NCBI GenBank assembly: GCA_003978485.1
Contig: QNZF01000026.1
Span: 1-37,312 of the forward strand
Reading direction: 5' to 3'
From: Persephonella sp.
GTDB lineage: Bacteria > Aquificota > Aquificia > Aquificales > Hydrogenothermaceae
DNA length: 37,312 bases
Part shown: one piece after another, positions 20,840 through 21,507 of the stretch
How the letters are laid out: every line of letters starts with the position of its first letter
How positions within the stretch are numbered: position 1 is the stretch's first letter
Program-made: the position numbers and the translations under genes
The notes under the pieces: generated by a model
The model's database searches: none
What the model was told of the DNA's origin: nothing
The model's input: the letters and a program-made list of their open reading frames with translations, nothing else

Positions 20840-20943
20840 TAAATAACCTCTTTGTCTAGTATTTTTAAGATTTTTCTAGAATTATGATAACAAAATTCAT
20901 TAACTATATAAAAGCTAATCGGTTATAAAAGGTGTGGATAAGA

Positions 20944-20998
20944 TGTCATTTTAATGTCATTTTAGTGTCATTTTAATGTCATTCTAATGTCATTTTAA
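20944..20998 (+). repeat. Five tandem 11-bp direct repeats, consensus TGTCATTTTAA
   Basis: 20944, 20955, 20966, 20977, 20988: TGTCATTTTAA/TTTTAG/TTTTAA/TTCTAA/TTTTAA; an imperfect sixth unit TGTCAATTTAA at 21008. Confidence 0.97.
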
Positions 20999-21059
20999 AG
21001 ATTAAATTGTCAATTTAAAAATATGGTAAAAATCCTTTCTAAGCCTGTAGTTAAGCCGA

Positions 21060-21151
21060 TTAGACGATTTTTCTTAAGAAAAAACATAGATTTTAAATTC
21101 ACACTTTCCACATTTAAATCCACATTAAATTCACATTTTAAAACCGTCTAA
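21060..21151. repeat. Inverted repeat enclosing a palindrome and a TTCACA/TCCACA cluster
   Basis: TTAGACGATTTT (21060-21071) vs AAAACCGTCTAA (21140-21151), 11/12 complementary; TTTTTCTTAAGAAAAA palindrome at 21068-21083. Confidence 0.75.
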
Positions 21152-21507
21152 AAGCCTTATATATCAAGCTTTTCCTGACTTATCCACATAATTCACACTC
21201 TATTATTATTCTTATTATTAGTATTAATTAAATAATAATGTTAAAAATAAAATAATAGATAATTAGAATACTTAGAAAAAAATTAAACTCTTAAAGAAGC
21301 ATTTAAATTTCCAAGCAAAGAAAAACTAAAGTAAATCCATTCAAATAAGATAAAAAAGTAATAATCTTTCTCCAGAAAGAGTAATAGAGGTTTATTTTTT
21401 TATTTTTTATTTCTCACTTAAGGAATACTTAAGAAATAAGTAAAATTTAGATTTAAGGAATATACTGATTTTCGTAGAAAAATAAAAGTAAAAGAAACTA
21501 AAGAACT

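Follow-up and report, generated by a model that had tools for sequence, protein, structure and literature searches.

A predicted chromosomal replication origin away from dnaA in Persephonella, with genus-specific repeats and a duplicated module

Results

The window, a stretch of 37,312 nucleotides from a Persephonella sp., is contig C5 of G000, a metagenome-assembled genome of a hot-vent bacterium in the Hydrogenothermaceae, phylum Aquificota (1.16 Mb in 74 contigs, 78.6% complete, bin contamination 0.57%). Within it, the interval 20840-21507 separates purD (19562..20839, minus strand; Pfam GARS domains) from a gene encoding a Sel1-repeat protein (21508..21942, minus strand; Pfam Sel1), after which fmt follows on the plus strand. 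Both flanking genes are on the minus strand, as the preliminary description of this DNA had stated, and both lie outside the module described here. The purD product shares up to 91% identity with proteins of Persephonella and other Hydrogenothermaceae, and on this ground an affiliation with Campylobacterota, which composition and the Sel1 gene had suggested at first, was given up. A record titled Flavobacteriales (JALVEJ010000041.1) carries a purD 82% identical to that of the window aquificote, and its label or binning looks wrong.

Seven DnaA-box-like 9-mers and a trio-like tract had been reported in this interval, and we recovered all of them at the same positions. The left edge of the module is a perfect DnaA box, TTATCCACA (20933..20941, minus strand), which is kept in relatives and in the further copy of the module that the genome carries on contig C2. 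Standing in register with this box, and not listed in the preliminary description, are 11-bp units TGTCATTTTAA, five in tandem (20944..20998, minus strand); they read TGTCATTTTA(A/G) and form the strongest array in the window, with five occurrences of TGTCATT against 0.04 expected from shuffles of the 668-bp interval. A sixth, variant 11-mer, TGTCAATTTAA (21008..21018, minus strand), is identical in the C2 copy. The plus strand then carries four weak DnaA boxes, AAATTCACA, CTTTCCACA, AAATCCACA and again AAATTCACA, starting at 21095, 21104, 21116 and 21127 (21095..21135). As a cluster, these were not borne out by their number, since 26 boxes with at most two mismatches were counted against 27.2 expected, but they were by their conservation: their positions and spacing are the same in the C2 copy, and they occupy the same places in the relatives G001 and G002.

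Further right on the plus strand, a near match (12/13) to the IHF consensus WATCAANNNNTTR at 21162..21174, exact in the C2 copy, precedes the tandem DnaA boxes TTATCCACA and TAATTCACA (21180..21197); a pair before the tract is found family-wide. Next comes the DnaA-trio-like tract CTA TTA TTA TTC TTA TTA TTA GTA TTA (21200..21226, plus strand; complement 3'-GAT/AAT-5'), which lies in an AT-rich stretch of 13.6% GC (21198..21300) that we propose as the unwinding element. Chance expectations were obtained from dinucleotide shuffles of the 668-bp interval (1000 for boxes, 500 for the trio run). Two perfect boxes in 668 bp compare with 0.06 expected, and none of the 1000 shuffles reached two; a box followed by seven trios in a row is rare, with P = 0.004 (500 shuffles). 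The basal unwinding system (BUS) is defined by three or more trios lying no more than 16 bp from a box that has at most two mismatches, the middle A of the trios being on the 3'-5' strand (PMC8287927). At the window site a perfect box and an abutting second box are followed by CTA TTA TTA TTC TTA TTA TTA. The likeness to a BUS noted earlier extends to order and orientation (tandem boxes, spacer, trio tract, AT-rich duplex), and the arrangement recurs family-wide as one module.

To follow the module, 60 relatives were searched with 20925-21265 as query. It was located in more than 20 of them and is widespread in Hydrogenothermaceae; outside the family, these 60 relatives yielded only one marginal 26-bp match each in G053 and G057. 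Most family modules contain 10-16 perfect TTATCCACA boxes over about 600-800 bp, on both strands and spaced by 11, 21 or 44 bp, and a search for paired boxes 11 bp apart returned essentially a single cluster per family genome. Unlike most of the family, G000 and G001 have two modules each. The succession of box, short spacer and TATTATTATT tract ([T/C]ATTATTATT) is kept in 21 of 23 family modules, 17 of them by a strict pattern and four more by eye. IHF-consensus sites, typically TAAGTTATTGATA, recur at positions of about -325, -175 and -51 relative to the tract and at some 36 times background, a count that is inflated in modules built on the box TTATCAACA because these boxes overlap the consensus.

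The surroundings of the module are not preserved. Conservation of the purD-side interval in sister genomes had been put forward as a check, and we found none, with other genes preceding purD there. This can be explained by a module whose gene neighbours differ from one species to the next. In relatives the module adjoins guaA, ubiD or other genes. The window module lies 4.6 kb from an ankyrin-accD-ymdB block that is also found next to the module of G002 and of G001.

The site had also been described as not adjoining dnaA or dnaN in the window, and the dnaA gene of the window genome is indeed on another contig, C21, where a thiL-like gene follows it. The surroundings of this dnaA hold neither DnaA boxes nor a box cluster, and the dnaA locus was rejected as the origin for this reason. 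The distance between dnaA and the module amounts to hundreds of kb in G004, G010, G024 and G025. The complete G010 record begins at dnaA (G010:C1:189-1505), while its origin module is at 493 kb; linearising such records at dnaA may misplace the origin.

The residue equivalent to E. coli Asp433 was read from 29 family DnaA proteins aligned with solved DnaA structures. It is Asp in 22 of them, Asn in four (G017, G022, G025 and G031) and His in three (G000, G001 and G002), and His occurs at this position only in the genus of the window. The modules of Asp genomes use TTATCCACA, while those of three Asn genomes, G022, G025 and G031, use TTATCAACA. When tandem TTATCAACA was then searched for, arrays turned up in Asn genomes alone, apart from one stray in G011. 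Among them was one site in G017, a genome that had played no part in forming the idea that Asn goes with TTATCAACA. In G002, from the His genus, the left array grades from TGTGGATAA through TGTCGATAA to TGTCATTTTA in an 11-bp register. From these comparisons, the Asp433-equivalent residue appears to covary with the box, Asp going with TTATCCACA, Asn with TTATCAACA and His with TGTC 11-mers. The corresponding bases at box position 6 (C for Asp, A for Asn and G for His) are those that a simple contact rule would predict, binding itself being inferred. Asp433 has been assigned to box position 7 (PMC8235120). The contact residue changed only twice in our sample, and one observation goes against the rule: in the His genus, position 6 of the tandem pair beside the trios is still C. 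We propose that the TGTCATTTTAA 11-mers, with G at position 6 of the minus strand, are predicted genus-specific DnaA sites.

The pho box of E. coli consists of 11-bp repeats with TGTCAT. The TGTCATTTTAA array could serve a PhoB-like response regulator, as an origin control element, instead of DnaA: its period and core are those of the E. coli pho box, and the TGTCATTTTAA 11-mer has few bases in common with TTATCCACA. Against this, the repeat TGTCATN5TGTCAT is confined to the two modules in the window genome (78.6% complete) and to the modules in G001, and it is found at one other place in G002. Repeats elsewhere, as at phosphate genes, were not found in the part of the window genome that is assembled (78.6%). 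The array is moreover in register with DnaA boxes, into which it grades in G002, and the TGTCAT-type repeat is restricted to the genus whose DnaA carries His. A PhoB-like protein as the ligand is possible but somewhat doubtful, and we keep to DnaA as the predicted partner of these 11-mers.

Strand composition was then considered. Raw GC skew tracks gene direction and is uninformative here, and we therefore used GC skew at third codon positions, with a correction for the coding strand, comparing leading with lagging genes under the assumption that forks leave the module. The difference was positive at 16 of 17 modules, with a mean of 0.150, against a mean of -0.004 (sd 0.106) for 79 control centres, and it was positive in all nine genus means. 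Genome-wide skew had been named as a check on the window site; the local difference there was 0.122 (p = 0.019, 37 genes), a modest flip in an incomplete and fragmented genome, and the optimal cut points within the window were at 19.5-21.5 kb. In addition, a whole-chromosome step model was fitted to sampled stretches. In the complete genome G025 the fitted origin fell at 160 kb and the module is at 153 kb, a result that stood well clear of the null (rank 1 of 83). Its origin for G024 was about 100 kb off the module, and it yielded no usable genome-wide signal for G004 and G010; local skew at the G010 module was contrary.

The second module of the window genome (G000:C2:11858-12163) is almost complete and 84% identical to the first over about 300 bp. 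It adjoins genes for a TrkA-type ion channel and a metal-transport ATPase, and the similarity between the C5 and C2 copies stops at the end of the functional unit. Differences between the two avoid the boxes, affecting 1 of 63 sites within boxes versus 38 of 202 outside (Fisher p = 0.0002). The two modules of G001 are 92% alike; one is at C135, and the other is split between the end of C278 and the start of C112, as expected of an assembly repeat. This broken module shares its setting with that of G002, having guaA on one side and an ankyrin gene on the other. The second copies occupy different places in G000 and G001. Two copies within one genome are more alike than copies of sister species, so that duplication must have happened more than once unless conversion has kept the copies alike. 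That the second module was simply inserted at a site left unchanged in other respects was not borne out, as the neighbours differ too. An origin of the C5 and C2 copies from mixed strains is unlikely, given ordinary chromosomal genes on both contigs and a contamination of only 0.57%.

A better box and trio region elsewhere in the genome would have spoken against the window site. Such a rival exists in that the C2 module is equally good, but it shows no skew flip (-0.001), and the C5 copy in the window is for this reason taken for the main origin. The C2 module is probably a duplicated origin and not the main one, whether a spare, a decoy or a DnaA-titrating site.

Both modules might instead be origins of one chromosome, used together or in alternation. 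Consistent with this, C5 and C2 keep all boxes and the trios, they sit among ordinary chromosomal genes, and the sister genome G001 likewise carries a pair. The skew flip that is absent at C2 is likewise absent at the second G001 module (-0.073, from only 9 genes), and an opinion paper of 2015 found natural functional origin pairs on one bacterial chromosome to be without evidence (PMC4403523). We consider two active origins unlikely. The reverse assignment, with C2 as the working origin and the window copy as a duplicate that acts as decoy or titration site or is a relic, could draw on the longer perfect trio run and the exact IHF-type site at C2; it is improbable, given that the skew flips at C5 and that it is C5 that lies near the gene block flanking the module in G002 and G001. 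A reading of the site as nothing more than the AT-rich promoter region of purD, in which DnaA boxes arose by chance, would fit its position upstream of purD and a weak-box count not above chance, yet this is very hard to sustain, since the module of relatives sits away from purD and neither its conservation nor the skew flip would be explained. A plasmid or phage origin was rejected, the window having no match to plasmid or phage DNA and housekeeping genes as neighbours, and an RNA element was likewise rejected for lack of any match.

Discussion

The above findings suggest that 20933-21300 is very probably a chromosomal oriC of BUS layout, predicted here from sequence and situated away from dnaA. 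At such an origin, DnaA would bind the boxes of the plus strand as well as the 11-bp array at the left, probably with the help of an IHF- or HU-type bending protein in folding the complex. DnaA on the 21180-21197 pair could then spread along the adjoining trio tract, and melting of the AT-rich DNA to the right of the trios would allow helicase loading and firing.

More tentatively, DnaA specificity may have changed at least twice within the family through the Asp433-equivalent residue, Asp giving way to Asn where the box is TTATCAACA and to His where TGTC-type 11-mers occur, with matching changes in the origin each time; in the His lineage the module would have been duplicated on one chromosome, with both copies under selection. 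We regard this scenario as less likely than not.

E. coli oriC resembles the window module in having box arrays and, close to the unwinding element, a site of the IHF consensus; it is not known to have TTATCCACA arrays at an 11-bp period, and its trio layout differs. The datA and DARS clusters of DnaA boxes in E. coli offer a possible parallel for the role of the C2 copy, which retains a trio tract and an unwinding element, features that those clusters are not known to have. In layout the module resembles the BUS of B. subtilis oriC, in which tandem boxes, a short spacer, 3'-[G/A]A[T/A]-5' trios and an AT-rich duplex follow one another in the same order and orientation (PMC6669920, PMC8287927). 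In contrast to that BUS, the window module is not beside dnaA, it is preceded by long 11-bp box arrays, its trios are mostly of the AAT type with fewer GAT, and the DnaA of the genus has His at the Asp433 position. The bipartite oriC of Helicobacter and Arcobacter also has more than one DnaA-box cluster and a lineage-specific box; its clusters lie to either side of dnaA, no more than a few kb away (PMC5043019), whereas the modules of the window genome are far from dnaA and on separate contigs. The oriC of Thermotoga maritima, also a thermophile, shares the presence of trios and of a DnaA box particular to its lineage, but it has another box sequence, five boxes in the minimal origin and an essential TAG-rich eTrio (PMC10316083).

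We found no description of a Hydrogenothermaceae origin in the papers searched, although Aquifex DnaA is a standard structural model. What would be new is the predicted origin type of the family and, in the genus of the window, the degenerate boxes, the changed DnaA contact residue and the duplicated module. An origin that changes neighbours, carries very regular 11-bp arrays, covaries with a DnaA residue and is duplicated would open two questions to testing: by what route DnaA boxes are re-specified while replication goes on, and whether two origin modules can persist on a single bacterial chromosome. In another family of the order, a similar row of DnaA boxes at 11-bp spacing, with repeated AAGTTATTGATA motifs nearby, was observed at G059:C1:1673293-1673345, and it is a possible origin of that family.
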